From positions 1-64,000 of the forward strand of contig NZ_FCNW02000009.1 in assembly GCF_001544475.1 (NCBI RefSeq): a stretch of DNA of 64,000 nt. Direction: 5' to 3'. This stretch comes from Caballeronia humi. Its GTDB lineage: Bacteria > Pseudomonadota > Gammaproteobacteria > Burkholderiales > Burkholderiaceae. Under the pieces are notes generated by a model. It saw nothing but the letters and a program-made list of their open reading frames with translations, did no database searches and was not told where the DNA came from. Position 1 is the stretch's first letter, and every line of letters starts with the position of its first letter. Made by a program: the position numbers and the translations under genes. This document shows, piece after piece, positions 32,140-57,798 of the stretch.

Positions 32140-32844
32140 CTAAGAGGTGCTTTCCGGACTCGCCGATATCGAAAGCACAGCATCGCGCTTTTCGAGCAGA
32201 TGGTGACGCAGGATGGCGGACAGGCGCTTGCCGTCACGCGCATCGAGCGCTTCGAGCATTTCCTCGTGATCGTGAATCGCGCGGTCCCACTTCGGCGTCT
32301 GGAAATTCGACCGGAAGCGCAGCGCCTGCAAGCGCCGGTTCACCGAGACATATGTCTGCCGCAGCGCCGAATTGCGCGCCGCTTCGTTGATTTTGTCGTG
32401 GATCGCCTGATTGCGGCTGTAGTAGCCGGCAAGATCGTTCTGGGCGCGGCACGCAAGCATCGCGTAATGCAAGGCCTTGATCTCCGCGATCTCCGCCGCA
32501 GTGATCCGTTCGCACGCGAGTTCGCCCGAAAACGCCTCCAGCCCACTCATCAATTCGAACGTCTCGCGTAACTCGGCCTCGGACATCTTCGAGACCGACG
32601 CGCCCCGATTCGGCGAAATCTCGACCAATCCCTCCGACGCCAATACTTTCAGTGCTTCGCGCAGTGGCGTGCGCGAAATGTCGAGTGTTTCGCACAGCTC
32701 GCGCTCGTTGAGTTTCTTCCCCGGCTCCAGCACCCCTTCGACGATAAACCGCCTCAGATGATCGACAACTGTGTCGTGCAGACGTTGCCGTTCGACTTTT
32801 GGCAGCAGGGGCGGGGCGTCCTTACCGATTTCGAGATTTTGCAT
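32140..32844 (-). CDS. GntR-family regulator (FadR/FCD type)
   Basis: A 234-residue regulator. The winged helix (about 20-85) reads LHDTVVDHLRRFIVEGVLEPG, then LNERELCETLDISRTPLREALKVLASEGL. The FCD effector domain follows, with metal-binding residues typical of the family in the HD..FH-like positions (NQAIHDKI and AIHDHEEML). It is divergent from the aminotransferase gene. Two near-identical TTTTGCAT(A/G)CAAAA palindromes, one over its own start and one before the aminotransferase, are the predicted binding sites. So it probably represses both the 32993-40645 cluster and itself. Confidence 0.88.
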   Translation of the reverse strand: MQNLEIGKDAPPLLPKVERQRLHDTVVDHLRRFIVEGVLEPGKKLNERELCETLDISRTPLREALKVLASEGLVEISPNRGASVSKMSEAELRETFELMSGLEAFSGELACERITAAEIAEIKALHYAMLACRAQNDLAGYYSRNQAIHDKINEAARNSALRQTYVSVNRRLQALRFRSNFQTPKWDRAIHDHEEMLEALDARDGKRLSAILRHHLLEKRDAVLSISASPESTS

Positions 32845-32850
32845 ACAAAA
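32837..32850. promoter_or_regulatory. Predicted GntR operator at the regulator start
   Basis: TTTTGCATACAAAA, a 14-base near-palindrome that covers the start codon of the GntR gene (CAT at 32842-32844). It matches the second site at 32961-32974 in 13 of 14 bases. Autoregulation by occupying the translation/transcription start is inferred. Confidence 0.7.
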
Positions 32851-32929
32851 TGCTCCTGATCTTTGCCGACATTTTATCTCAACTCTGGCGATGCTCGAAA
32901 TAACGGGGTAAACACTAGTCGAAATTCAC

Positions 32930-32974
32930 TTGGTGGATGTGCGTCTCCAGTCGTATAGTTTTTTGCATGCAAAA
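32930..32974 (+). promoter_or_regulatory. Promoter and GntR operator before the aminotransferase
   Basis: The perfect palindrome TTTTGCATGCAAAA (32961-32974) lies just downstream of TATAGT at 32954-32959, which with TTGGTG at 32930-32935 (18-base spacing) makes a plausible sigma-70 promoter. A repressor bound here would block transcription start. The same word occurs over the GntR start. Confidence 0.7.
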
Positions 32975-32992
32975 TTCAATCGGAGGAGCCAA

Positions 32993-34213
32993 ATGCTCAA
33001 GTTAGACTTTCACCCCGCCGGACGCCACTTCCTGCAAATCCCCGGACCGAGCCCGGTGCCGGATCGCATCCTGCGCGCGATGAGTTACCCGACCATCGAC
33101 CACCGTGGCCCCGAATTCGGCGCGCTCGGCCTGAAGGTGCTCGACGGCATCAAGAAAATTTTCAAGACGCAGCAGCCGGTCGTGATCTATCCGGCGTCGG
33201 GCACGGGCGCCTGGGAAGCAGCGCTCGTCAACACGCTGAGCCCCGGCGACACCGTCCTGATGTTCGAAACGGGCCACTTCGCCACGCTCTGGAAAAAGAT
33301 GGCGGAAAGCCTGGGCCTCAAGCCCGAATTCCTCGGCTTGCCCGGCGTCGAAGGCTGGCGGCGCGGGGTGCAGTCGCAGATGATCGAAGAGCGCCTGCGT
33401 GCCGACACTGAACGCAAGATCAAGGCGGTCTGCGTCGTGCACAACGAGACGTCGACGGGTGTCACGTCGGACATCGCCGCCGTGCGCCGCGCCATCGATG
33501 CCGCCGATCACCCCGCGCTGTTCCTCGTCGATACGATCTCAGGCCTTGCAAGCGCTGACTATCGCCATGACGAATGGGGCGTGGACGTCACCGTGTCCGG
33601 TTCGCAGAAGGGCTTGATGCTGCCGCCGGGGATCAGCTTCAACGCGGTATCGAAGAAGGCGCTGGCCGCGAGCAAGGAGGCGAAGTTGCCGCGCAGCTTC
33701 TGGGGCTGGGACGAAATCATCGAGATGAACAAGGGCGGCTACTGGCCCTACACGCCGAACACGAACCTCCTGTACGGCCTGAACGAAGCGCTCGAAATGA
33801 TCACCGACGAAGGGCTCGACAACGTCTTCGCGCGCCACAACCGTCTCGCTGAAGCGTGCCGCCGCGCGGTGCGCGCGTGGGGTCTCGAAATCCAGTGCGA
33901 AGACCCGGCCGTGTACAGCCCGGTGCTCACTGGCGTGATGACGCCGCAAGGCATCGACGCCGACGCCGTGCGCAAAGTGATCTACGAACGCTTCGACATG
34001 TCGCTTGGAACCGGCCTCGGCAAGATGAAGGGGCGCATGTTCCGCATCGGGCATCTCGGCGACTGCAACGATCTCACGCTGATGGCGACGCTCGCCGGCT
34101 GCGAGATGGGCCTGCAACTGGCGGGCGTCCCGCTCGCGGGAAGCGGCTTGCCGGCGGCGATGGCTTTCCTTGCCTCGGAAGCAAAAGCCGCGACGCTAAA
34201 AGCCGCTGCCTGA
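32993..34213 (+). CDS. Class V aminotransferase, serine/aspartate-glyoxylate type
   Basis: A 406-residue PLP enzyme. The PLP lysine is K206 in VSGSQKGLMLPPG. Other landmarks are FLQIPGPSPVP at 13-23, DHRGPEFG at 36-43, SGTGAWEAAL at 69-78 and HNETSTGVTSDI at 150-161. These fit the alanine/serine/aspartate-glyoxylate aminotransferase branch that includes BhcA of the beta-hydroxyaspartate cycle. It would move an amino group onto glyoxylate to give glycine. GGAGGA lies 7-8 bases before ATG 32993. It opens a GntR-controlled set with an MFS, an FAD/Fe-S dehydrogenase and a D-threonine-aldolase-like enzyme. The amino donor cannot be told from sequence. Confidence 0.87.
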   Translation: MLKLDFHPAGRHFLQIPGPSPVPDRILRAMSYPTIDHRGPEFGALGLKVLDGIKKIFKTQQPVVIYPASGTGAWEAALVNTLSPGDTVLMFETGHFATLWKKMAESLGLKPEFLGLPGVEGWRRGVQSQMIEERLRADTERKIKAVCVVHNETSTGVTSDIAAVRRAIDAADHPALFLVDTISGLASADYRHDEWGVDVTVSGSQKGLMLPPGISFNAVSKKALAASKEAKLPRSFWGWDEIIEMNKGGYWPYTPNTNLLYGLNEALEMITDEGLDNVFARHNRLAEACRRAVRAWGLEIQCEDPAVYSPVLTGVMTPQGIDADAVRKVIYERFDMSLGTGLGKMKGRMFRIGHLGDCNDLTLMATLAGCEMGLQLAGVPLAGSGLPAAMAFLASEAKAATLKAAA

Positions 34214-34327
34214 TCCCAACCCGTACCCGAGCCTGAACGCGCCGCGCAAGAGAACGCGGCCGCTCGAACTCGGCTGCGCGTCATCGACGGCGCGCTGCCG
34301 GCGCACATAAAGTCACGGAGACAAACG

Positions 34328-35617
34328 ATGAAACGGTTTCGTATCAACAGTGCGACAAGCATCGTTCTAATCATGTTGTGCATCATGTATTTCATCACCT
34401 ACCTCGATCGCGTGAATGTCAGCACGGCGGCGGCGGGATTCGGCAAGGAGTTCGGTCTTTCGAATACGCAGATCGGGCTCGTGTTCTCCGCTTTCGCGTA
34501 TCCGTATCTGGTGTTTCAGGTTATCGGCGGCTGGGTCAGCGACCGCTTCGGCGCGAAGCGCACGCTGCTGTTCTGCGGCGCTCTATGGGCGCTGGCGACG
34601 CTGCTGACGGGCTTCGCGGGCGGTCTCGCATCGCTCCTGGCCGCGCGAGTGCTGCTCGGTTTGGGGGAGGGCGCGACCTTCCCGGCGGCGACGGCTGCGA
34701 TGTCGCGCTGGGTCGCGAAGGAGCGGCGCGGCTTCGCGCAGGGCATCACGCATGCGGCGGCGCGCATTGGCAACGCGGTGGCGCCGGGTGCGATCGTCGT
34801 GGTGATGGCGGCTTATGGATGGCGTGAGTCGTTCTTTATCTGCGGGGCGATCAGCCTTGTGTGGGTTGCGGTCTGGTGGCTCACGTTCACCGAGCATCCG
34901 AAGGACCATCCGCGCATCACCGCCGCCGAGCTCGAAGTGCTTCCGCCGCCGAAGCCGAAGCCCGCCAAGGTACCGTGGATGCCGCTCTTCAAGCGCATGA
35001 TGCCGGTGACGATCGTCTATTTCTGCTACGGCTGGACGTTGTGGTTGTTCCTGAGCTGGATACCGCAGTATTTCTTGCACAGCTATCACCTCGACCTCAA
35101 GAAATCGGCGATCTTCGCGTCCGCCGTGTTCTTTGCGGGCGTGGTGGGCGATACGTTGGGCGGGATCGTCACGGACAAGCTGCTCGAACGTACCGGCAGC
35201 CTCAAGCGCGCACGCAGCTACATGGTGTCGGTGTGCATGCTGCTCACGCTTGCTTCGCTCGTTCCGCTGATGTTCACGCACAACCTGTATCTGTCGATGG
35301 CGTGTCTTGCCGCCGGGTTCTTCTTCGCGGAAATGACGATCGGGCCGATGTGGGCCATTCCGATGGACATCGCTCCGCAGTATTCCGGCACTGCGAGCGG
35401 CATGATGAATACGGGTTCGGCGCTGGCCGCGATCATTTCGCCGGTGCTGTCGGGGTATCTGATCGACCGCTTCGGCAGTTGGGAACTGCCGTTCGTTGGG
35501 AGCATGGTGCTGATGGCGATCGGCGTCGTGCTCGCGTTCCGGATGCAGCCGGAGAGCAAGTTCGAGCTTGCCGCCACGCCCGGTAAGCATGCGGCTTCTT
35601 CGCGGATTGGCGCCTAG
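34328..35617 (+). CDS. MFS transporter, ACS family (hexuronate/organic-acid type)
   Basis: A 429-residue 12-helix transporter. LDRVNVSTAAAGFGKEFGLS and the segment QIGLVFSAFAYPYLVFQVIG with GGWVSDRFGAKRTL place it in the ACS branch near the glucarate/galactonate/hexuronate carriers. It follows the aminotransferase by 114 bases. A hairpin-forming inverted repeat region of 0.8 kb separates it from the FAD/Fe-S gene. It probably imports the substrate of the cluster, an organic or hydroxy acid. Confidence 0.87.
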   Translation: MKRFRINSATSIVLIMLCIMYFITYLDRVNVSTAAAGFGKEFGLSNTQIGLVFSAFAYPYLVFQVIGGWVSDRFGAKRTLLFCGALWALATLLTGFAGGLASLLAARVLLGLGEGATFPAATAAMSRWVAKERRGFAQGITHAAARIGNAVAPGAIVVVMAAYGWRESFFICGAISLVWVAVWWLTFTEHPKDHPRITAAELEVLPPPKPKPAKVPWMPLFKRMMPVTIVYFCYGWTLWLFLSWIPQYFLHSYHLDLKKSAIFASAVFFAGVVGDTLGGIVTDKLLERTGSLKRARSYMVSVCMLLTLASLVPLMFTHNLYLSMACLAAGFFFAEMTIGPMWAIPMDIAPQYSGTASGMMNTGSALAAIISPVLSGYLIDRFGSWELPFVGSMVLMAIGVVLAFRMQPESKFELAATPGKHAASSRIGA

Positions 35618-35640
35618 CGGCGGGGGCGGTTTTTGTCTTA

Positions 35641-35880
35641 ACCGTTTGATGCGCTAGTGCTCCCAGGAAACTTGCTTTCTTAGCGGTCTATTAGCTCTGC
35701 CCCTGTCCGGGGCGGGACTCACTTTCTTTGCTGCTGCAAAGAAAGTAAGCAAAGAAAGCAGCTTTCAACCGCCAGTGCTAACCAATCCATCACTAGCGTT
35801 TGATTGGGATTGGCGCTGGAGAGTAAGTGTCGCCCTCACGGTGTAACCGGGCTTGGCTCGCGGACCCACTGTGGCAACTC
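35641..35880. repeat. Left arm of a long inverted repeat
   Basis: About 240 bases that recur, reverse-complemented, at 36187-36425. One 90-base core (around 35678-35767, with runs of CTTTCTTTGC and its complement) differs at a single base between arms. The core itself contains shorter self-complementary pieces (TTTCTTTGCTGCTGCAAAGAAA). Similar AAAGAAAG-rich intergenic elements are, as far as I know, frequent in Paraburkholderia/Caballeronia genomes. There is no open frame of significance. Confidence 0.85.
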
Positions 35881-36012
35881 GCAGTACAACGGACCGGTGC
35901 AGCAGTCATACATCCGTCATGGCGCTTCGCGCTCAGACGCTGGGTGCATCGGGCAGGGCGTAGGGAATTAAGGCAAGAGGAGCGCAAGCAAAAGATGGTT
36001 TTTGTGAATCTG

Positions 36013-36151
36013 ACGTCGGAGCGGAGCGAGGACGGCGCTATCCTCGCGCTACGCGCTTAGACGATGAGTGCAAGCGCAGGAGTCAAGTTAAGTGGACGCT
36101 AGTCAAACGATGGGTTTTAGTGGACCCCACGTCGGAGCGAAGCGAGGACGG
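36013..36151 (+). repeat. 23-base direct repeat in the loop of the inverted repeat
   Basis: A 23-base word beginning ACGTCGGAGCG and ending GCGAGGACGG occurs at 36013-36035 and 36129-36151 with one mismatch. Both copies follow a similar GATGG/GATGGG-TTTT context. The loop (35881-36186) also carries other fragments of the same type. It suggests the element is built of repeated modules. Confidence 0.7.
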
Positions 36152-36186
36152 AGCCAAACGGAGTGCACACCACTCAGAGGAAGTGC

Positions 36187-36425
36187 GCGTTGTCACAGTG
36201 GGTCCGCGAGCCAAGCCCGGTTCCATCGTGAGGGCGACACTTACTCTCCAGCGCCAATCCCAATCAAATGCTCGTGGTGGATTGTTAGTTTTGGCGGTGG
36301 GAAGCTGCTTTCTTTGCTTACTTTCTTTGCAGCAGCAAAGAAAGTGAGTCCCGCCCCGGACAGGGGCAGAGCAAATAGACCGCTAAGAAAGCAAGTTCCA
36401 TCGAAGCCCAAGCGCATCAAACGGT
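36187..36425. repeat. Right arm of the long inverted repeat
   Basis: Reverse complement of 35641-35880. The outer ends match as ACCGTTTGATGCGCT and its complement; the inner ends match through CCCACTGTG. The arm ends 54 bases before the start of the FAD/Fe-S gene, so its promoter, if separate, must lie inside or beside the arm. Confidence 0.85.
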
Positions 36426-36479
36426 GTTAAGCAACCCAACCCCACCCCGAGCGCCAGCAAACATCACGAAGGTACTCAC

Positions 36480-39400
36480 ATGACTCCTCCGACCTCAGGC
36501 TTGCTCGTAAAGCCGATCCATCTGGTCCCGTCGTCGGCGCGTTACGCGTCGCCTCTCGCGCGGCGGCTGCGCGAAGCCTTGCGCGGCGACGTCTACTTCG
36601 ATACCGCGAGTCGCGGCCGCTATTCCACCGATGCGTCTATCTACCAGATCATGCCGACCGGCGTCGTCGTGCCGCGCGATCAGGACGACCTGCGCGCGGC
36701 GCTCGAAATCGCCCGCAACGAGAAGGCGGCGGTGCTCGCGCGCGGCGCGGGAACGAGCCAGTGCGGGCAGACGGTGGGTGAAGCGCTCGTCATCGACACG
36801 ACGAAGTGGCTCAACAACATCGTTTCCTTCGATGCGAACGCGCGCACCGTGACGGTCGAGCCGGGCGTCGTGCTCGATCACCTGAACGCGTGGCTGAAAC
36901 CGCACGGCCTGTGGTTTCCCGTCGACGTATCGACGGCCGCGCAGTGCACGATCGGCGGGATGGCCGGCAACAACTCGTGCGGCTCGCGCTCGATCGAATA
37001 CGGCAACATGGTGCACAACGTGCTGTCGATCGATGCCGTGCTCGCCGACGGCAATGAAGCGCGCTTCCAGTCGCTGAACCTGCCCGCGGACGACGCGCGG
37101 CTGAAAGGCATCATCGATGGCGTACGCCGCATCGCGACGCGCGAGCGCAGCGAAATCGCCGAGCGCATGCCAAAGGTGCTGCGCCGCGTGGCGGGCTACA
37201 ACATCGACCTGTTCGATTGCCAGAATCCGCTCGCCTACACCGATGACGGCTCGGCGAACCTCGCGCATCTGCTGGTCGGATCGGAGGGGACGTTGGCCTT
37301 CAGCCGCCAGCTCACTCTGAAGCTCGCGCCGCTGCCCGCGCACAAGACGCTCGGCGTCGTGAACTTCCCCACCTTCTACCAGGCGATGGACTTCGCACAG
37401 CACATCGTGAAGCTGCGCCCGACGGCGGTCGAACTCGTCGACAGCACGATGATCGAGTTGTCCCTCACCAATCCGGCGTTTCGTCCGGTGATCGAGAAGG
37501 CGTTGGTCGGCAAACCGGCTGCGATCCTGCTCGTCGAGTTCGCAGGCGACGATCACGCGGCGCAGGTACAACGTCTCGCGCAACTCGACGACCTGATGAG
37601 CGACCTCGGCCTGCCCGGATCGGTCGTGAAAATGCCCGAGGCCGACGAGCAAAAGGCGCTGTGGGAAGTGCGCAAGGCGGGCCTCAACATCATGATGAGC
37701 ATGAAGGGCGACGGCAAGCCGGTGTCTTTCATCGAGGACTGCGCGGTGCCGCTCGAACACCTCGCGGAGTATACGAACCGGCTGACCGCGATGTTCCACG
37801 AGCACGGCACGGAAGGGACGTGGTACGCGCACGCGAGCGTCGGCACACTGCACGTGCGGCCGATTCTCGACATGCGCCGCGATGGCGCCGCGAAAATGCG
37901 CGCAATCGCGGAGCAGGCCGCCGAACTCGTGCGCGAGTACAAGGGCGCGTATTCGGGCGAACATGGCGACGGCCTGTGTCGCGGCGAATGGGTCGCGTGG
38001 CAATACGGGCCGCGCATCAACCGGGCGTTCAGCGAGATCAAGCAACTGTTCGATCCGGAGAATCGCTTCAGCCCCGACCGGATCGTGCGTCCCCCGAAAA
38101 TGGACGACGCGCGCAACTTTCGCTTCGCGCCGGGGTATCGAGAGAAGGCGTTCACGCCGTCGCTAGACTGGTCGGCGTGGAACGTGACGCGCGATCCGCT
38201 CACGGGCGCCGAAACGCTCCCCGGTACCGGCGACGACCTGAGCGGCGGCCTCGCCAAGGCCGTCGAGATGTGCAACAACAACGGCCATTGCCGCAAGTTC
38301 GACGCCGGCACGATGTGCCCGAGCTATCGCGTGACGAAGGACGAACAGCACGTCACGCGCGGACGCGCCAACACGCTGCGCCTCGCGATTTCCGGACAAC
38401 TCGGCGACGAAGGGCTCGCGAGCCGCGACGTGAAGGAGACGCTCGACCTGTGTGTGTCGTGCAAAGGCTGCAAACGCGATTGCCCGACCGGCGTCGACAT
38501 GGCGAAGTTCAAGATAGAGGCGCGCGCGGCGTGGGCGAAGCGCCACGGCATCACGCTGCGCGAAAAGATGGTCGCATATATGCCGCGCTATGCGCCCCAT
38601 GCGGCGCGGGCCGGCGGCTTGATGGCGGCTGCCGAGCGCATTCCGGTGGTGTCCGCGTGGGTGAAGCGCGCGATCGGCTTCGCGCCCGAGCGATCGATGC
38701 CGCGTTTTCGCAAGTCGTTCCTGTCGGACGCGGTGAAACTCGGCACGAACGCATCGGCGGCGAAGGAAGTGCTGCTCTTCGTCGATACCTTCAACAACTA
38801 CATGGAGCCGGACAACGCCCGCGACGCGCAACGCGTGCTCGAAGCCGCCGGTTACACCGTGCACTTCAATACGCGCGAAGGCGAGCGGCCGGTCTGCTGC
38901 GGGCGGACCTTTCTCGCGGCGGGTCTCGTCGACGAAGCGAAACGCGAAGCGCGGCGCTTGCTCGATACACTGATGCCGTTCGTGGAGCGCGGCGTCGCGG
39001 TGGTCGGACTGGAGCCTTCCTGCCTGCTCTCGATGCGCGACGAATTCCTGCAATACGGCTACGGCGAGGAAGCGCGCAAACTCTCGGAATCGGCGTTCCT
39101 GTTCGAGGAGTTTCTCGTGCGCGAGAAGGCGGCGGGGCGCCTGAACCTCCTGCTGCGCGCGCTCGATGCGCCCCGCGCATGGGTCCACGGCCATTGCCAC
39201 CAGAAAGCGTTCGACGCGTTTCGCCCCGTGCAGACCGTGCTCGGCTGGATTCCGGGGCTGGAAGTGAAGGCGATCGAGTCGTCGTGCTGCGGGATGGCCG
39301 GCAGCTTCGGCTACGAGGCGGAGCACTACGCGGCATCGAAGGCGATGGCGGAGCTGTCGCTCTTGCCCGCCGTGCGCCAGGCGGCGCGAGGAGATGTTAT

Positions 39401-39512
39401 CGTCGCCGACGGCACCAGTTGCCGCCATCAGATACACGACGGCGCGGCGGCCGAGGCCCTGCACGTCGCGCGCGTGCTGGCCCTTGCACTCGATTCCGGA
39501 TCATCCACATGA
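36480..39512 (+). CDS. FAD-linked and iron-sulfur D-2-hydroxyacid dehydrogenase (YdiJ/Dld-II type)
   Basis: A 1010-residue fusion. Residues about 60-270 are an FAD-binding (PCMH) domain with RGAGTSQCGQTVG and GGMAGNNSCGSRS, and 280-545 the FAD-oxidase C-terminal domain ending GEHGDGLCRGEW and LFDPENRFSPDRIV. From about 595 a ferredoxin-like part has CNNNGHC...C and CVSCKGCKRDCPTG (two 4Fe-4S clusters). The end holds two CCG heterodisulfide-reductase-like domains (PVCCGRTFLAAG, SSCCGMAGSFGYE). It would oxidise a D-2-hydroxyacid such as D-2-hydroxyglutarate, D-lactate, D-malate or glycolate, passing electrons to the membrane. The stop overlaps the next start by four bases. Confidence 0.9.
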   Translation: MTPPTSGLLVKPIHLVPSSARYASPLARRLREALRGDVYFDTASRGRYSTDASIYQIMPTGVVVPRDQDDLRAALEIARNEKAAVLARGAGTSQCGQTVGEALVIDTTKWLNNIVSFDANARTVTVEPGVVLDHLNAWLKPHGLWFPVDVSTAAQCTIGGMAGNNSCGSRSIEYGNMVHNVLSIDAVLADGNEARFQSLNLPADDARLKGIIDGVRRIATRERSEIAERMPKVLRRVAGYNIDLFDCQNPLAYTDDGSANLAHLLVGSEGTLAFSRQLTLKLAPLPAHKTLGVVNFPTFYQAMDFAQHIVKLRPTAVELVDSTMIELSLTNPAFRPVIEKALVGKPAAILLVEFAGDDHAAQVQRLAQLDDLMSDLGLPGSVVKMPEADEQKALWEVRKAGLNIMMSMKGDGKPVSFIEDCAVPLEHLAEYTNRLTAMFHEHGTEGTWYAHASVGTLHVRPILDMRRDGAAKMRAIAEQAAELVREYKGAYSGEHGDGLCRGEWVAWQYGPRINRAFSEIKQLFDPENRFSPDRIVRPPKMDDARNFRFAPGYREKAFTPSLDWSAWNVTRDPLTGAETLPGTGDDLSGGLAKAVEMCNNNGHCRKFDAGTMCPSYRVTKDEQHVTRGRANTLRLAISGQLGDEGLASRDVKETLDLCVSCKGCKRDCPTGVDMAKFKIEARAAWAKRHGITLREKMVAYMPRYAPHAARAGGLMAAAERIPVVSAWVKRAIGFAPERSMPRFRKSFLSDAVKLGTNASAAKEVLLFVDTFNNYMEPDNARDAQRVLEAAGYTVHFNTREGERPVCCGRTFLAAGLVDEAKREARRLLDTLMPFVERGVAVVGLEPSCLLSMRDEFLQYGYGEEARKLSESAFLFEEFLVREKAAGRLNLLLRALDAPRAWVHGHCHQKAFDAFRPVQTVLGWIPGLEVKAIESSCCGMAGSFGYEAEHYAASKAMAELSLLPAVRQAARGDVIVADGTSCRHQIHDGAAAEALHVARVLALALDSGSST

Positions 39513-40645
39513 CACTTGCTGTTCCTCCCGCCGCGCTCGTCGGCGATTCGCTCGGGCGCGTCGGCACGCCGTCGCTCCTGATCGACCTCGATGCCTTCGA
39601 TGCCAACCTGCACGAGATGGCGGCCTTCGCAGCATCGAGCGGAGTCGCGCTACGGCCGCACGCGAAAGCGCACAAATCGAGCGCCATCGCGACGAGGCAA
39701 GTGGCGGCGGGCGCGGTCGGCGTGTGCTGCCAGAAGCTGAGCGAGGCGTATCCGTTCGCGGCGGCGGGTATCGAAAGCATTCACGTCAGCAACGAGTTCT
39801 TCGGCGCGGACAAGCTCGCGATGGCTGTGGAACTCGCGTCGCACGTGCGCTTGAGCGTGTGCGTCGATGCGCGCGTCCAGGTGGACGCGCTCGGCAAAGC
39901 GGCGGCGCGGGCGGGCGTCACGATCGACGTGCTGCCCGAAGTCGATGCCGGCCAGCATCGCTGTGGCGTGACGACCCCGGCTGCGCTCCTCGGACTCGTC
40001 GACGCCGTGACCGCGCACGCGTCGCTGCGCTTCGCGGGCGTGCAGGCGTATCACGGCGGCGCGCAGCACATTGCCGGGTGGAACGCGCGCAAGGAAGAAG
40101 CAGCGCGCACCGCCGACCGGACGGCCGCGTTCCTGCGAGCACTCGAAGCGCGCGGCGTCCGATGCGCGGTCGTGACGGGCGGCGGAACGGGCACGGTCGA
40201 ATTTGATGCCGTGAGCGGCGTCTACACGGAAGTGCAGCCCGGCTCGTACCTCTTCATGGATGGCGACTACGGCGGCCTCGACTGGTCCGGCGCGATGCGA
40301 CCCCGCCACAGCCTCTTCGTCCTCTCGACGATCATGAGCGCGGCGCGCGAGGGCATCGCCGTGTGCGATGTGGGACTGAAGGGCTTGGCTGTCGATTCGG
40401 GATTGCCGCGCAGTGTCGGCTGGGCACCTGGGTCGAAAGGACCGGCGCTGCGGTACGTCGCCGCGAACGACGAACACGGCATGCTCGAAGCGGACGGCGA
40501 TACCGCCGGCGTGATCGGCGAGCGCGTTCTGCTGCCGCCGGGACATTGCGATCCGACGGTGAATCTTTATGACGAATATGTGTGCTTTCGAGGCGATCGC
40601 GTGGAAGCAATATGGCCGATCGACGCGCGGGGATTGTCGCGGTAA
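39509..40645 (+). CDS. DSD1-family PLP enzyme (D-threonine/3-hydroxyaspartate aldolase or D-serine dehydratase type)
   Basis: A 378-residue alanine-racemase-fold enzyme. The PLP lysine should be K53 in RPHAKAHK. The C-terminal metal site is H346 and D348 in GHCDPTVNLYD, matching the His-x-Asp site of D-threonine aldolases. It would either cleave a D-3-hydroxy amino acid to glycine plus an aldehyde (3-hydroxyaspartate gives glyoxylate) or eliminate water from one. ATG 39509 overlaps the FAD/Fe-S stop (ATGA), so the two are translationally coupled. Together with the class V aminotransferase it recalls BhcC and BhcA, but the substrate is inference. Confidence 0.87.
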   Translation: MTLAVPPAALVGDSLGRVGTPSLLIDLDAFDANLHEMAAFAASSGVALRPHAKAHKSSAIATRQVAAGAVGVCCQKLSEAYPFAAAGIESIHVSNEFFGADKLAMAVELASHVRLSVCVDARVQVDALGKAAARAGVTIDVLPEVDAGQHRCGVTTPAALLGLVDAVTAHASLRFAGVQAYHGGAQHIAGWNARKEEAARTADRTAAFLRALEARGVRCAVVTGGGTGTVEFDAVSGVYTEVQPGSYLFMDGDYGGLDWSGAMRPRHSLFVLSTIMSAAREGIAVCDVGLKGLAVDSGLPRSVGWAPGSKGPALRYVAANDEHGMLEADGDTAGVIGERVLLPPGHCDPTVNLYDEYVCFRGDRVEAIWPIDARGLSR

Positions 40646-51557: not shown

Positions 51558-51990
51558 CAAGCGCTCTATACGACGACCGTGAGCGTGACGGGCGGCGACG
51601 CGGCGCACGGCCGCGCGTCTGGCGCCGCCCGCTCGGGCGACGGCAATCTCGACGTCGCCTTGCGCCTGCCGGCCACGCTCGGCGGCCTTGGCGGCGGCAC
51701 GAACCCCGAGCAGCTTTTCGCGACGGGCTACGCGGCGTGCTTTCACGGCGCGCCAAGCCTTTTGGCCGCGAAAGCCGGTTTCGCGATTCCCGATTCGAAA
51801 GTCGGCACCTCGGTCACCTTCGGCCGCGATCCCGTCGATCGCCTCTTCATGCTCAAAGCCGACATCACGATCCGCCTGCCCGGCATCGACCGCGCAGGCG
51901 GAAGCGCTCGTGCGCCACACCGAGCGCTTTTGCCCGTACGCGAAGATGGCGCGGCAGGGCATCGTCAATATCGTTTCACTGGCTATCTAA
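51558..51990 (+). pseudogene. Broken ohr/OsmC (organic hydroperoxide resistance) gene
   Basis: Two frames together give an Ohr protein: LYTTTVSVTGGDAAHGRAS and TNPEQLFATGYAACFHGA in one frame, then AEALVRHTERFCPYAKMARQG in the other, ending at TAA 51988-51990. The frame changes near 51893-51897 (GACCGCGCAGG), where one or two bases appear lost. The first catalytic cysteine (AACFHG) is in frame one and the second (FCPY) in frame two. The start codon is also absent: QAL replaces MKAL. If the sequence is right the gene is inactive. Confidence 0.8.
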
Positions 51991-52063: not shown

Positions 52064-52082
52064 TGGTCTACTCATCACACCA
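52064..52082. promoter_or_regulatory. Predicted GntR operator before the apionate-type operon
   Basis: TGGTCTACTCATCACACCA, a 19-base imperfect palindrome (TGGT...ACCA). It agrees in 15 of 19 bases, and fully in the 11-base right half, with the site before the GntR gene at 57049-57067. It lies 47 bases before the MFS start. An additional right-half word TCACACCA sits at 52003-52010. Confidence 0.65.
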
Positions 52083-52129
52083 GCACAAAAAGAAATCGGT
52101 TCATACCATCCCCAGGCGGAGGAGGCGAA

Positions 52130-53497
52130 ATGCAAACTGCAGATCTCGCGTCGATCGAACGATCGGCGATTCGCAAGGTGTCGCTACGGCTCGTGCCGTT
52201 CGTGGCGCTGATGTTTTTCATCAACTTCCTCGACCGGACCGCGATTTCCTTCGCCGGTCCGAACGGGATGACCAAGGATCTCGGCCTCACCGCCGCGCAG
52301 TTCGGGCTCGCCGCGGGCGTGTTCTTCATCGGCTACATCCTGCTGGAGATTCCCAGCAACCTCGCGCTGCACAAGTTCGGCGCGCGCCGCTGGCTCGCGC
52401 GGATCATGGTGACGTGGGGCGTCGTCGCGCTGCTGTTCACCTGGGTCAGCAGCATTCAGGGCCTCTACACGCTGCGCTTTCTGCTCGGCGTCGCGGAAGC
52501 CGGCTTCTTCCCCGGCGCGATCCTGTTCCTCAGCATGTGGGTGCCCGCGCGGCACCGCAGCCACATCCTCGCGCTCTTTTACCTCGCCCAGCCGCTGACG
52601 ATCGTGATCGGCGCGCCCCTCGCGTCGCTCCTGATCGAGGCGAACGGCGCGTTCGGCCTCGCCGGCTGGCGGATCATGTTCTTCGGCGTGGCGGTCCCGG
52701 CGATCGCGGTCGGTTTCATCGCGTGGTTCTACCTCGCAGACCGGCCGTCGCAGGCCAAATGGCTCACGCCCGCCGAGCAGCAATGGCTCACGGCTGAACT
52801 CGAAGCTGAAGAACGCGCGAAGACGCAGTCCGCCGCCCCGCACACGCTGCGTCCCGGCGCCGCGATGATGAGCGGCCGCGTCTGGATGTTCGCGCTGATG
52901 TACTTCGGCCTGATCTACGGCCTCTACGCGCTGGCGTTCTTCCTGCCGACGATCATCGGCGGCTTTGAAGGCCGCTTCGGCACGCACTTCAACGTGTTCC
53001 AGAAAGGCCTGATCACCGCGATTCCTTACCTGCCGGCCGCAGTCGCGCTGTTCCTGTGGAGCCGCAATGCCACGAAGCGCGGCGTGCGGGCGTGGCACAT
53101 CGGCATCCCGGCGCTGATCGGCGCGGCGAGCATCCCGGTGGCGCTCTTCATGCGCTCGCCGACGGCCAGCATCGCCGTCATCACGATCACCGCCTGCGCG
53201 ATCTTCTCCGCGCTGCCGAACTTCTGGGCGCTGCCTGCGCGCTTTCTGTCGGGCGCGGCGGCCGCTGCCGGTATCGCGCTGATCAACACGGTCGGCAATC
53301 TCGCGGGCTTCATGGCGCCCTACATCACAGGCGCCGTCAAGGATGCGACGGGTTCCTACCAGGCGCCGATGTTCATCGTCGGGGCCTTCATGCTGATGTC
53401 GGCGGGACTCGCGTTCGCCATCGGCTCGACGACGCGGCAAGGTGCGCGCGACGACGCCGTCCCGGCTGGCCTAAAGCCGCACACGCCCGTCAAATAA
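52130..53497 (+). CDS. MFS transporter, ACS family, first gene of the sugar-acid operon
   Basis: A 455-residue 12-helix transporter. The pattern RLVPFVALMFFINFLDRTAISFA, EIPSNLALHKFGARRWLA and the intermediate loop SRNATKRGV mark the ACS branch. It would import the sugar acid (D-apionate or a similar branched acid). ATG 52130 has GGAGG. It is followed at 37 bases by the oxidoisomerase-like gene. Confidence 0.87.
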   Translation: MQTADLASIERSAIRKVSLRLVPFVALMFFINFLDRTAISFAGPNGMTKDLGLTAAQFGLAAGVFFIGYILLEIPSNLALHKFGARRWLARIMVTWGVVALLFTWVSSIQGLYTLRFLLGVAEAGFFPGAILFLSMWVPARHRSHILALFYLAQPLTIVIGAPLASLLIEANGAFGLAGWRIMFFGVAVPAIAVGFIAWFYLADRPSQAKWLTPAEQQWLTAELEAEERAKTQSAAPHTLRPGAAMMSGRVWMFALMYFGLIYGLYALAFFLPTIIGGFEGRFGTHFNVFQKGLITAIPYLPAAVALFLWSRNATKRGVRAWHIGIPALIGAASIPVALFMRSPTASIAVITITACAIFSALPNFWALPARFLSGAAAAAGIALINTVGNLAGFMAPYITGAVKDATGSYQAPMFIVGAFMLMSAGLAFAIGSTTRQGARDDAVPAGLKPHTPVK

Positions 53498-53534
53498 CGC
53501 TTTTTCACCGAAACGAATTTCCGGAGATATTGAA

Positions 53535-54365
53535 ATGAACGAGAAGATTGCACTCTTTGGCGCAGGCGGAAAGATGGGTTACCGCCTGACGAGCAACCTG
53601 TTGAAGTCAGATTACCGCGTCGCGCACGTCGAGCCGGGCGAGGGCGGCAGGAAGCGCCTGAAGGACGAGTTGAACGTGGAATGCGTGTCGGCGGATGCGG
53701 CCCTCGACGGCGCCGATGTCGTGATCCTCGCCGTGCCCGACACGCTGATCGGCAAGCTGAGCCACGACATCGCGCCGAAGCTGCGTCCCGGCACGATGGT
53801 GATGACGCTCGATGCCGCCGCGCCGTTCGCCGGCCACCTGCCGGACCGCAAAGATTTGACGTATTTCGTCGCGCACCCGTGCCACCCGCTGATCTTCAAC
53901 GACGAAGCTACGACCGAAGGCCGCCGCGACTTCTTCGGCGGCGCGCATGCGAAGCAATCGATCACGAGCGCGCTGATGCAGGGGCCTGAAGAAGCGTTCG
54001 ATCTGGGCGAAGCGGTCGCGAAGGTGATCTATCAGCCGATCCTGCGGTCGTACCGCCTGACCGTCGACCAGATGGCGCTGCTGGAGCCGGGCCTTTCCGA
54101 GACGATCTGCGCGACGCTGCTCTACGTGATGCGCGAGGCGATGGAGGAAACGGTCGCGCGCGGCGTGCCTAAGGAAGCGGCGCGTGACTTCCTGCTCGGG
54201 CACATGAACATCCTCGGCGCGGTGATTTTCAACGAAATCCCGGGCGCCTTCTCCGATGCGTGTAATAAAGCGATCGAGTTCGGCAAGCCGCGCCTGATGC
54301 GCGACGACTGGAAGAAGGTCTTCGATCGCGAGGAGATCGCGGAAAGCATCCGGCGCATCACGTAA
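53535..54365 (+). CDS. apnO: D-apionate oxidoisomerase-like NAD-dependent protein
   Basis: A 276-residue protein with a Rossmann motif ALFGAGGKMG at 6-15 and a C-terminal dimerisation part with LRSYRLTVDQMALLEPGLSE. It resembles beta-hydroxyacid dehydrogenase/6-phosphogluconate dehydrogenase-like proteins. As recalled from work on D-apiose catabolism, ApnO oxidises and isomerises D-apionate to 3-oxo-isoapionate. Its place immediately before a RuBisCO-like gene and a DUF1537 kinase is the basis of the gene symbol. If the neighbours were absent I would call it only an NAD-binding dehydrogenase. Confidence 0.7.
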   Translation: MNEKIALFGAGGKMGYRLTSNLLKSDYRVAHVEPGEGGRKRLKDELNVECVSADAALDGADVVILAVPDTLIGKLSHDIAPKLRPGTMVMTLDAAAPFAGHLPDRKDLTYFVAHPCHPLIFNDEATTEGRRDFFGGAHAKQSITSALMQGPEEAFDLGEAVAKVIYQPILRSYRLTVDQMALLEPGLSETICATLLYVMREAMEETVARGVPKEAARDFLLGHMNILGAVIFNEIPGAFSDACNKAIEFGKPRLMRDDWKKVFDREEIAESIRRIT

Positions 54366-54410
54366 TTTCGAGACGCCGCGCGCCTGCTCATTCATTCGAG
54401 GAAAACCACT

Positions 54411-55655
54411 GTGACCGAACGCATCCACGCCACTTACTGGCTCGAAACCGGCGTCGATCCGCAGCTTGCCGCCGACGTGATCGCCGGCGAGCAGTCGAGC
54501 GGAACCTTCGTCGCGCTGCCGACCGAGACGCCCGAACTCAAGGCGCGCTCGGGCGCGCGCGTCGAGCGGCTCGATGTTCTGGACCGTTCCGATACGCCGA
54601 GCCTGCCCGGCGGTATCGAAGGGAAGGTTTATACGCGCTGCGCGCTGGAACTGTCGTGGCCGATCGAGAACATGGGTCCATCGCTGCCGAACCTGATGTC
54701 GACGATCGCCGGGAATCTCTTCGAACTGCGCCAGGTGTCCGGCTTGCGCCTGACGGGGCTGAAGTTGCCGCAGTCGTTCGCCCGGGCCTATCCGGGGCCC
54801 GCGTTCGGCATCACGGGCACGCGCAGGCTGGCGGGCGTCGAGCGAGGGCCCTTGATCGGCACGATCATCAAGCCGAGCGTGGGCTTGTCGCCGGAACAGA
54901 CCGCGCAGCAGGTGCGCGAACTGGTGGCGGGCGGCATCGACTTCATCAAGGACGACGAGTTGCAGGGCGACGGCCCGCACTGTCCGTTCGACGAACGCGT
55001 TCGCGCGGTGATGCGCGTCGTGAACGAACACGCTGATCGCACCGGCAAGAAGGCGATGGTCGCGTTCAACCTGACCGGCGACCTCGACCAGATGAAGCGC
55101 CGCCACGACCTCGTGCTCGCGGAAGGCGGCACGTGCGTGATGGCGGTGCTCAATTCGATCGGCCTCGTCGGCATGCACGAATTGCGGCGCCACAGCCAGT
55201 TGCCGATCCACGCGCATCGCGCGGGCTGGGGATATTTATCGCGCAGTCCGCAGCTTGGCTGGGATTACGCGCCGTGGCAGATGCTCTGGCGTCTCGCGGG
55301 CGCGGATCATTTGCACGTGAACGGCTTGCGCAACAAATTCAGCGAACCGGACGACAGCGTGATCGCCGCCGCCCGTTCGGTGCTCGCGCCGGTCATGCCC
55401 GAAGCGCCGATGGCCGCGATGCCGGTCTTCAGTTCCGGCCAGACCGGCCTGCAAGCCGCCGACACCTACGCCGCGCTCGGCTGCGCGGACCTGATCCACA
55501 CGGCGGGCGGCGGTATCTTCGGGCATCCGGGCGGCGTCGCGGCGGGCGTCGAGGCGTTGCGCGAGTCGTGGGTCGCGGCGATCGAAGGCGTGCCGCTCGA
55601 CACGCACGCGGAGCGCCATCCCGCGTTGCGCGCCGCGCTGGGGTTCTGGAAATGA
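54411..55655 (+). CDS. RuBisCO-like protein (3-oxo-isoapionate-4-phosphate decarboxylase or transcarboxylase/hydrolase)
   Basis: A 414-residue RuBisCO-like protein from GTG 54411. The TIM barrel keeps GTIIKPSVGLS with K154 (equivalent to K175 of RuBisCO) and DFIKDDE with K180, D182 and E183 (the carbamate and magnesium site, K201/D203/E204). Other landmarks are HRAGWGYLSRSPQLGWDY and VFSSGQTGLQAADTY. Family members of this context include OiaC (decarboxylase, to L-erythrulose-1-phosphate) and OiaX (transcarboxylase/hydrolase, to 3-phosphoglycerate and glycolate). Which is present cannot be told by eye, but no erythrulose-phosphate isomerase is seen here, which favours OiaX. The stop overlaps the kinase start. 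Confidence 0.85.
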   Translation: MTERIHATYWLETGVDPQLAADVIAGEQSSGTFVALPTETPELKARSGARVERLDVLDRSDTPSLPGGIEGKVYTRCALELSWPIENMGPSLPNLMSTIAGNLFELRQVSGLRLTGLKLPQSFARAYPGPAFGITGTRRLAGVERGPLIGTIIKPSVGLSPEQTAQQVRELVAGGIDFIKDDELQGDGPHCPFDERVRAVMRVVNEHADRTGKKAMVAFNLTGDLDQMKRRHDLVLAEGGTCVMAVLNSIGLVGMHELRRHSQLPIHAHRAGWGYLSRSPQLGWDYAPWQMLWRLAGADHLHVNGLRNKFSEPDDSVIAAARSVLAPVMPEAPMAAMPVFSSGQTGLQAADTYAALGCADLIHTAGGGIFGHPGGVAAGVEALRESWVAAIEGVPLDTHAERHPALRAALGFWK

Positions 55656-57019
55656 GCGCGGCGGCGCCGAACGCGTGGCCCGCCGGGCCGCTTCTGGCCT
55701 ATTACGGCGACGACTTCACCGGATCGACCGACGCGATGGAAGCGATGACCGCCGCCGGCGTCCCGACGCTCCTGTGCCTCGACACGCCCGCGCCCGATTT
55801 GCTCGCGCGCTTGCCGGAGGTGCGCTGCGTGGGCCTCGCGGGATCGTCGCGCGGACGCAGCCCCGAGTGGATGGACGACGCGTTGCCGCGCGCCTTCGCG
55901 AGCCTCGCCGCGCTCGGCGCGCCGATCCTGCAATACAAAGTGTGCTCGACGTTCGATTCGTCGCCGGAGATCGGCTCGATCGGGCGCGCGATCGAGCTCG
56001 GCGTGCAGCACATGCCGGGGAAATGGTCGCCGATGATCGTCGGCGCGCCGCGTCTCAAGCGCTATCAGGCGTTCGGCAACCTGTTCGCGGTGGTCGACGG
56101 CGAGGGCCATCGCCTCGACCGCCATCCGACGATGTCCCGCCACCCCGTCACGCCGATGAACGAAGCCGATCTGCGCGTGCATCTGCGTCGGCAAACCGCG
56201 CGGCGCATCGAGCTGATCGACATGGTGCGCCTGCGCTCGCACGATGCTGCCGCCCAATGCCGAGCGCTCACCGGAGACGACACGCCCATCGTCCTGATCG
56301 ACGTCCTCGACGACGAAACGCTCGCCGCGGCGGGACGGCTCGTCTGGGAAGCGCGCGGGGAGGGCGTGTTCAGCGCGTCGTCGTCGGGACTGCAATACGC
56401 GCTCGCGGCGCATTGGCGCGCGTGCGGGCTGCTGCCAACCGCGCCGGGACTGCCGCGCATCCAACCCGTCGATGCGATTGCCGCCGTCAGTGGAAGCTGC
56501 TCGCCCGTGACGGCGGGGCAGATCGGCTGGGCGCGCGCGAACGGCTTTTGCGTCGAGCGTCTCGATTTGCGACGCGTGCTCGATGAAGGAGCGTCGGAGG
56601 CCGAGATCGAGCGGGCGGTGGGCGTCGCGGTGCAGGCGCTCGGGCGCGGGCAGAGCGCGCTCGTCCACAGCGCCGAAGGCCCGGACGATGTCGCCGTCCT
56701 CGAATTCGACGCCACCGCGCGCGCCGCCGGCATGACGCGGCACGCGGCGGCGCGGCGCGTCGGCGAGGCGCTCGCGGCGGTCATGCAGCGACTGCTCGAT
56801 CGAGTCGATTTGAAACGCGCGGTGGTCGCGGGCGGCGACAGTTCCGGCGAAGTAGCGAGCGCGCTCGGCATCTCGGCACTGAGCGTGGCGGCCGGACTCG
56901 CGCCGGGCGCGCCGCTTTGCCGCGCGTGGTCGAACAATTCGCGTCGCGACGGGCTGGAAATCGTGTTGAAAGGCGGGCAGATAGGCGAGGCGTCGTTCTT
57001 CGGCTCGGTGCGCGGCTGA
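55652..57019 (+). CDS. oiaK: Four-carbon acid sugar kinase (DUF1537), 3-oxo-isoapionate kinase-like
   Basis: A 455-residue kinase. The N-terminal half begins LLAYYGDDFTGSTDAMEAMT, with SRGRSPEW and STFDSSPEIGSIGRAIE, typical of the acid-binding domain. The C-terminal half has AAVSGSCSPVTAGQI and near the end VVAGGDSSGEVASALGI, the ATP-binding part. DUF1537 enzymes phosphorylate four-carbon acid sugars such as threonate and erythronate; the OiaK subgroup uses 3-oxo-isoapionate. It is coupled to the RuBisCO-like gene by ATGA. The symbol rests on the operon. Confidence 0.75.
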   Translation: MSAAAPNAWPAGPLLAYYGDDFTGSTDAMEAMTAAGVPTLLCLDTPAPDLLARLPEVRCVGLAGSSRGRSPEWMDDALPRAFASLAALGAPILQYKVCSTFDSSPEIGSIGRAIELGVQHMPGKWSPMIVGAPRLKRYQAFGNLFAVVDGEGHRLDRHPTMSRHPVTPMNEADLRVHLRRQTARRIELIDMVRLRSHDAAAQCRALTGDDTPIVLIDVLDDETLAAAGRLVWEARGEGVFSASSSGLQYALAAHWRACGLLPTAPGLPRIQPVDAIAAVSGSCSPVTAGQIGWARANGFCVERLDLRRVLDEGASEAEIERAVGVAVQALGRGQSALVHSAEGPDDVAVLEFDATARAAGMTRHAAARRVGEALAAVMQRLLDRVDLKRAVVAGGDSSGEVASALGISALSVAAGLAPGAPLCRAWSNNSRRDGLEIVLKGGQIGEASFFGSVRG

Positions 57020-57048
57020 GGCGCGGGTTCCATCGGAGCGGCGTCGCA

Positions 57049-57067
57049 TGGTAAGGTCATCACACCA
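57049..57067. promoter_or_regulatory. Predicted GntR operator at the regulator gene
   Basis: TGGTAAGGTCATCACACCA, in the 68-base gap before the GntR gene, 20 bases before its ATG. It pairs with the site at 52064-52082 and suggests autoregulation. Confidence 0.65.
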
Positions 57068-57087
57068 ACTACGTGCAGGCTGACTTC

Positions 57088-57798
57088 ATGGCTGAGACCA
57101 CCATTGTTCGCCGGAAGCTCTATCAGGAAGTGCTCGACCGGCTGATGGACCGCATCCGTTCGGGAGAGATCGCGCCCGGCGCGCAGCTTCCGTCCGAACG
57201 CGAACTGATGGAAATCTACGGCGTCGGGCGCCCCGCGATCCGCGAGGCGCTGCAGACGCTCGAACGCTCCGGCATCGTCGAGATTGCGCATGGCGAGCGC
57301 GCGCGCGTCGTCGTGCCGACCGCCGAAACGCTGATCGCGCAGATCGCTGGCGGCGCGATGCACCTGCTGCGCATGCAGCCGGACATGCTCGAACACCTCA
57401 AATCGGCGCGCATGTTCCTCGAAGCCGGCATGGCGCGGATGGCCGCCGGGAATGCCAGCGAGGAGGACGTCGCGCAGCTTCAGTTGAAGGTCGCGCAGCA
57501 GCGGGCGTCGATGGTGAATCTGGAGGAATTCATCGAGCGCGACATGGCGTTTCATCGCGAAATCGCGCGGATCAGCGGGAATCCGATCTTTCCGTCGATC
57601 GTCGAATCGCTGTTTCGCTGGGCCGGCGAGTACTACCGGCCGCTCGTGCGCGCGCCCGGCGCGGAAGAACTGACGCTCTCCGAACATCAGCGAATCGTCG
57701 ATGCGATCGCCGCGCACGACGGCGACGCCGCCGAGCAGGCGATGCGCGCGCATCTGAGCCGCGCGAACGATCTTTACCGGACGCTGATCCGGACCTGA
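57088..57798 (+). CDS. GntR-family regulator (FadR/FCD type) of the sugar-acid operon
   Basis: A 236-residue regulator. The winged helix (8-75) reads YQEVLDRLMDRIRSGEIAPG and LPSERELMEIYGVGRPAIREALQTLERSGI. The FCD domain is from about 90 to 230. It lies after the kinase gene (68 bases), on the same strand, with the same TGGT...ACCA palindrome before it as before the transporter. So it most likely represses the operon and itself in the absence of the acid or a derivative. Confidence 0.88.
   Translation: MAETTIVRRKLYQEVLDRLMDRIRSGEIAPGAQLPSERELMEIYGVGRPAIREALQTLERSGIVEIAHGERARVVVPTAETLIAQIAGGAMHLLRMQPDMLEHLKSARMFLEAGMARMAAGNASEEDVAQLQLKVAQQRASMVNLEEFIERDMAFHREIARISGNPIFPSIVESLFRWAGEYYRPLVRAPGAEELTLSEHQRIVDAIAAHDGDAAEQAMRAHLSRANDLYRTLIRT

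Follow-up and report, generated by a model that had tools for sequence, protein, structure and literature searches.

Organisation of the operon

The window, i.e., the whole 64,000-nucleotide stretch of DNA analysed here, carries five genes on the forward strand that encode, in this order, an MFS transporter, an ApnO-type oxidoisomerase, a RuBisCO-like protein (RLP), a DUF1537 kinase and a GntR/NanR regulator (Table 1). Intergenic distances are 37, 45, -4 and 53 bp, the start of the kinase gene overlapping the RLP stop by 4 bp. All five genes were thus located in the order and with the short gaps of the original prediction; its first coordinate, 52064, marks no gene start, however, being where a conserved predicted operator begins.

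Table 1. Genes and predicted regulator sites of the operon (positions in the window).
Feature	Position	Strand	Family or motif
Operator 1, TGGTCTACTCATCACACCA, predicted NanR-type regulator site before the MFS gene	52064..52082	+	TGGT-N11-ACCA
MFS transporter, probable D-apionate importer	52130..53497	+	PF07690
Predicted ApnO-type D-apionate oxidoisomerase	53535..54365	+	PF16896 (PGDH_C), 247 bits
RLP, very probably OiaT type (3-oxo-isoapionate-4-phosphate transcarboxylase/hydrolase)	54411..55655	+	PF00016 + PF02788
DUF1537 kinase, predicted OiaK (3-oxo-isoapionate kinase)	55652..57019	+	PF07005 + PF17042
Operator 2, TGGTAAGGTCATCACACCA, predicted, before the regulator gene	57049..57067	+	TGGT-N11-ACCA
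GntR/FCD regulator, NanR subfamily	57073..57798	+	PF00392 + PF07729

The ATG of the MFS gene is preceded by AGGAGG, and the nearest NCBIfam models of its product are HpaX and the D-galactonate transporter, with scores under both cut-offs. The ApnO-type protein matches PDB 5t57 with 533 bits and is 71% identical to the ApnO-type gene from a rhizobial apiose operon. Both the kinase and the regulator pass the cut-offs of their models, OiaK (NF042436, 837.8 bits, cut-off 700) and NanR (NF003011, 315.5 bits, cut-off 260); the regulator may start at GTG 57073 or at ATG 57088. Since the MFS-ApnO-RLP-OiaK order is found again in Caballeronia, Paraburkholderia, Herbaspirillum, Collimonas, Cupriavidus and Xanthobacter, the arrangement is not due to chance. 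The host genome, that of a Caballeronia, has two members of the RuBisCO family; besides the window RLP there is a form I-like enzyme, encoded on a different contig. An OsmC/Ohr-like reading frame at 51579-51990 is apparently frameshift-broken near 51890.

Assignment of the RuBisCO-like protein

The RLP of Xanthobacter autotrophicus has been published as 3-oxo-isoapionate-4-phosphate transcarboxylase/hydrolase (OiaT; Carter et al. 2018, as cited in PMC6302742), and OiaX is named as 3-oxo-isoapionate-4-phosphate decarboxylase in PMC6302742 and PMC11747546. The window RLP is 76% identical to the sole RLP that the genome of strain Py2 encodes in addition to its form I RuBisCO, a comparison that assumes the assayed protein to be this RLP. 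We take Py2 to be ATCC BAA-1158; the genome was taken as Py2 on a 100% match between the first 8000 bases of a contig and plasmid record CP000782.1. The products of OiaT are reported to be 3-phosphoglycerate and glycolate.

Similarity to Py2 extends over the operon: the MFS-ApnO-RLP-OiaK order and the active-site residues are the same, with identities of 81% for the ApnO-type protein, 73-74% for the MFS carrier and 66% for the kinase. The main difference is in regulation, Py2 having a divergent LysR gene and no operator, whereas the window has a downstream NanR-type regulator with TGGT-N11-ACCA operators. A tree built from 91 proteins places the RLPs of the window and Py2 together in a fully supported clade of 31 rows that excludes OiaX, and the AU test rejected a single clade of window, Py2 and OiaX proteins (p = 8e-51). 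The phylogenetic comparison proposed in the original prediction puts the RLP outside the OiaX clade; a parallel comparison with OiaC would not be meaningful because OiaC is, to our knowledge, not an RLP.

OiaX is nevertheless the top-scoring NCBIfam model for the window RLP (NF042437, 449.5 bits), and the rhizobial OiaX operons share the DUF1537 kinase, the ApnO-type enzyme, NanR and, by inference, the substrate. These likenesses would suit a decarboxylase that releases CO2 and L-erythrulose 1-phosphate, which isomerases would convert to D-erythrose 4-phosphate. However, the score is below the cut-off of 700 bits and close to that of the Py2 RLP (431 bits), whereas the rhizobial OiaX from an apiose operon reaches 784.8 bits; rhizobial OiaX is about 43% identical to the window RLP. 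An erythrulose-phosphate product would need TIM-like and RpiB-like isomerases, which adjoin oiaX in the rhizobial apiose operon L108 and in L162; by tblastn, neither is present in the window operon. The rhizobial operons further differ in having an apiose-type ABC transporter, a Gfo/Idh dehydrogenase and a lactonase. Score, tree and context rule out OiaX membership, and we regard the decarboxylase reading as very improbable.

Two plasmid genes annotated as OiaX (L106, L156) are surrounded by aldo/keto reductase and ABC genes, and no ApnO-type gene was seen with them; in these clusters the OiaX label may be applied too broadly.

A methionine-salvage enolase (DK-MTP-1P enolase, MtnW) belongs to the same superfamily and is matched with 143-179 bits, but both scores are far under the respective cut-offs (142.8 versus 513.6 bits and 179.1 versus 409 bits), the operon has no mtn genes, and the kinase and ApnO context point elsewhere. 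This function, which the original prediction had named as its own counter-case, is contradicted by scores and context, and its probability is negligible. The form III RuBisCO model gives 236 bits, with a cut-off of 497.

We conclude with considerable confidence that this is an OiaT-type D-apionate utilisation operon whose RLP would split 3-oxo-isoapionate 4-phosphate into 3-phosphoglycerate and glycolate, the OiaT assignment being made through Py2 orthology, as the NCBIfam scan gave no OiaT model. The ApnO-type gene, the kinase passing the OiaK cut-off and the orthology to Py2 agree with a predicted D-apionate-type operon. The original prediction had spoken of an OiaX-type reaction to 3-phosphoglycerate and glycolate: the products can be kept, while the name has to be changed, since this reaction is that of OiaT and OiaX is a decarboxylase. 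Its statement that the step to these products requires no extra gene also stands. Most likely, the operon adds to the known OiaT pathway, which has itself already been described.

Active-site residues and proposed reaction

Lysines K154 and K180, together with D182 and E183, are present in the RLP, as had been predicted, and are invariant among its relatives; judging from these residues, the protein is probably active. K180 is the equivalent of RuBisCO K201. When aligned with form I RuBisCO, the RLP retains the equivalents of E60, T65, N123, K175, K201, D203, E204, H292, H294, R295, H325, H327, K334 and S379; among the checked residues, only K177 (S156) and W66 (F33) are changed, and with these two missing the protein lacks the full RuBP-carboxylase residue set of RuBisCO forms I-III. 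All 40 OiaT-clade proteins agree with the window RLP at the checked active-site positions.

Five of these positions separate OiaT from OiaX. The equivalents of E60, N123, H325, H327 and S379 are kept in 40/40 OiaT-clade proteins, the window RLP included, and replaced in all OiaX examined (E60D, N123G, H325Q, H327Q and S379G/C in seven OiaX and a related eighth protein, L159), a rule that amounts to a correlation with a single split in the tree. The pattern fits re-carboxylation of an enediolate followed by hydration and cleavage in OiaT, versus decarboxylation alone in OiaX. More broadly, we raise the tentative possibility, which we hold with low confidence, that the OiaT-like RLPs linked to DUF1537 kinases stand functionally close to RuBisCO and continue to carboxylate an enediolate and cleave its C-C bond hydrolytically, making use of every checked RuBisCO active-site residue but K177 and W66, OiaX having become a pure decarboxylase through the loss of E60, N123, H325, H327 and S379. 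If so, these five positions would predict the reaction of the many as yet unassigned RLP-kinase pairs, and OiaT might be able to use external CO2.

In the pathway that we propose, the MFS carrier would import D-apionate, a compound derived from the plant sugar apiose, and the ApnO-type enzyme would oxidise it with a shift of the hydroxymethyl group to give 3-oxo-isoapionate, which OiaK would phosphorylate to the 4-phosphate. In the RLP, K180 would be carbamylated, with D182 and E183 holding the metal; the enzyme would remove the carboxyl group and put it on the adjacent enediolate carbon, and hydration and cleavage, as in RuBisCO with its six-carbon intermediate, would then yield 3-phosphoglycerate and glycolate. 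We deduce the carboxyl transfer from the name and products published for the enzyme. 3-Phosphoglycerate would enter glycolysis, and glycolate would pass to GlcDEF and then to glyoxylate carboligase, both encoded elsewhere.

Other pairs of RuBisCO-like proteins and kinases

The same two products have been reported for another substrate. In the D-hamamelose pathway of Ochrobactrum anthropi, a RuBisCO-like oxygenase is described as leading to 3-phosphoglycerate and glycolate (Kim et al. 2018, as cited in PMC8914248 and PMC10176493), a likeness to the window RLP at the level of description. The operon might accordingly serve another branched-chain acid, e.g., one derived from D-hamamelose, with the RLP as an O2-dependent cleavage enzyme, and RLP-kinase pairs with an SDR dehydrogenase, often accompanied by LysR and TRAP genes, are 51-69% identical to the window RLP. 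In those clusters, however, the SDR stands in place of the ApnO-type enzyme, and no SDR of such a family lies near the window operon. We know of no ApnO-type enzyme in the D-hamamelose pathway of Ochrobactrum anthropi. ApnO-linked and SDR-linked RLPs also segregate strongly on the tree, with 4 changes each against means of 18.3 and 11.9 after shuffling, and the window kinase passes the OiaK cut-off. A hamamelose-like role is hence quite improbable for this operon, and D-apionate is retained as its likely substrate.

An SDR replaces ApnO at L016, L019-L023, L052, L067, L068, L077, L091, L095, L096 and L103, and such SDR-linked RLP-DUF1537 kinase pairs are candidates for D-hamamelose-like pathways. 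Other contexts were seen as well. In three cases (L025, L160, L161) the RLP and kinase are accompanied by a VOC-family protein and TRAP genes; these RLPs make up a clade of their own and have asparagine in place of K177. At three alphaproteobacterial loci (L071-L073) homologues of OtnK and OtnC (3-oxo-tetronate kinase and decarboxylase) adjoin the RLP gene. A Limnohabitans-like copy on a contig titled Akkermansia muciniphila (L037) is probably a binning error.

Regulator and predicted operators

The pattern TGGT-N11-ACCA occurs twice in the 64 kb, with 0.21 sites expected. Among copies with NanR, those of Caballeronia and most of those of Paraburkholderia keep the 19-mer of operator 1 unaltered, 54-92 bp before the MFS start, and it is found in more palindromic forms in Cupriavidus, Herbaspirillum and Collimonas; operator 2 also precedes the NanR gene in close relatives. 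In four Caballeronia copies without an adjacent NanR gene (L143, L144, L147, L148), the site at -54 has 1-3 mismatches, and no TGGT-N11-ACCA site was found in the Xanthobacter copy, which has LysR instead. Because the site is conserved beside NanR and degraded or absent without it, the comparison supports binding of NanR to this site. The regulator would bind upstream of both the transporter gene and its own gene, presumably as a repressor relieved by a pathway compound.

Apionate rather than apiose as the likely nutrient

No match to D-apionolactonase (ApnL) was found in the host genome, although the same search gave a 76% match in a Caballeronia control genome (G023), and the best Gfo/Idh matches, 26-27%, leave the genome with no close apiose dehydrogenase. 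ApnL is absent from 22/25 genomes with the MFS-type operon, those of Py2 and the window included, and present in three and in the control records. Without the lactonase, apionate rather than apiose is likely the nutrient; no source of apionate is encoded. Apiose clusters from Paraburkholderia and Microvirga (L015, L017, L027, L048) have the same RLP family, kinase and NanR, and most of them the ApnO-type enzyme, but they also encode an ABC importer, a Gfo/Idh dehydrogenase and ApnL, genes missing from the window genome. The operon thus resembles a module for apionate, distinct from the apiose module made up of ABC, dehydrogenase and lactonase genes. The Caballeronia control genome has two OiaT-type RLPs (L146 and L145), the one belonging to the MFS operon and the other to a cluster of ABC, dehydrogenase and lactonase genes.

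In two Paraburkholderia genomes (L027, L048) the same operon adjoins the ABC, Gfo/Idh and ApnL genes, and unrelated lactonases and dehydrogenases could serve in place of the latter two. The operon might thus be part of a D-apiose pathway completed by non-homologous enzymes encoded elsewhere in the genome. We find this unlikely given the absence of ApnL from most genomes with the operon and the low identity of the top Gfo/Idh match. A full D-apiose pathway of known enzymes is ruled out for the host genome, with neither the lactonase nor a close dehydrogenase. The operon, described as complete in the original prediction, is complete for apionate and not for apiose, and since those two enzymes were not found, we do not predict that apiose or apiin would support growth.

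Proposed fate of glycolate

The genome encodes, on contig C63, a GlcD scoring above its cut-offs together with GlcF and a GlcE-like protein; a second glcDEF-like set lies on contig C1 and a glyoxylate carboligase gene, gcl, on contig C17. Because glcDEF and glyoxylate carboligase are encoded elsewhere, the suggested partnership with the window region 32993-40645 for glycolate handling is unnecessary. The cluster at 32140-40645 comprises a GntR regulator, a BhcA-like aminotransferase (454 bits, cut-off 650), an MFS carrier, a YdiJ-like dehydrogenase and a BhcC-like 3-hydroxyaspartate aldolase (359 bits, cut-off 690), the last four all below their respective cut-offs. Its 1010-aa FAD/Fe-S dehydrogenase, at 36480-39512, is YdiJ-like rather than GlcD. 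The cluster is perhaps a hydroxyaspartate-type amino acid pathway.

Implications

Caballeronia and related Burkholderiales join the likely users of the OiaT route. Two details are open to experiment: the decay of the regulator site where the regulator is missing, and the five-residue difference between decarboxylating RLPs and those that would move a carboxyl group and cleave. A gene set limited to apionate points to free D-apionate as a soil nutrient, which other microbes may release.
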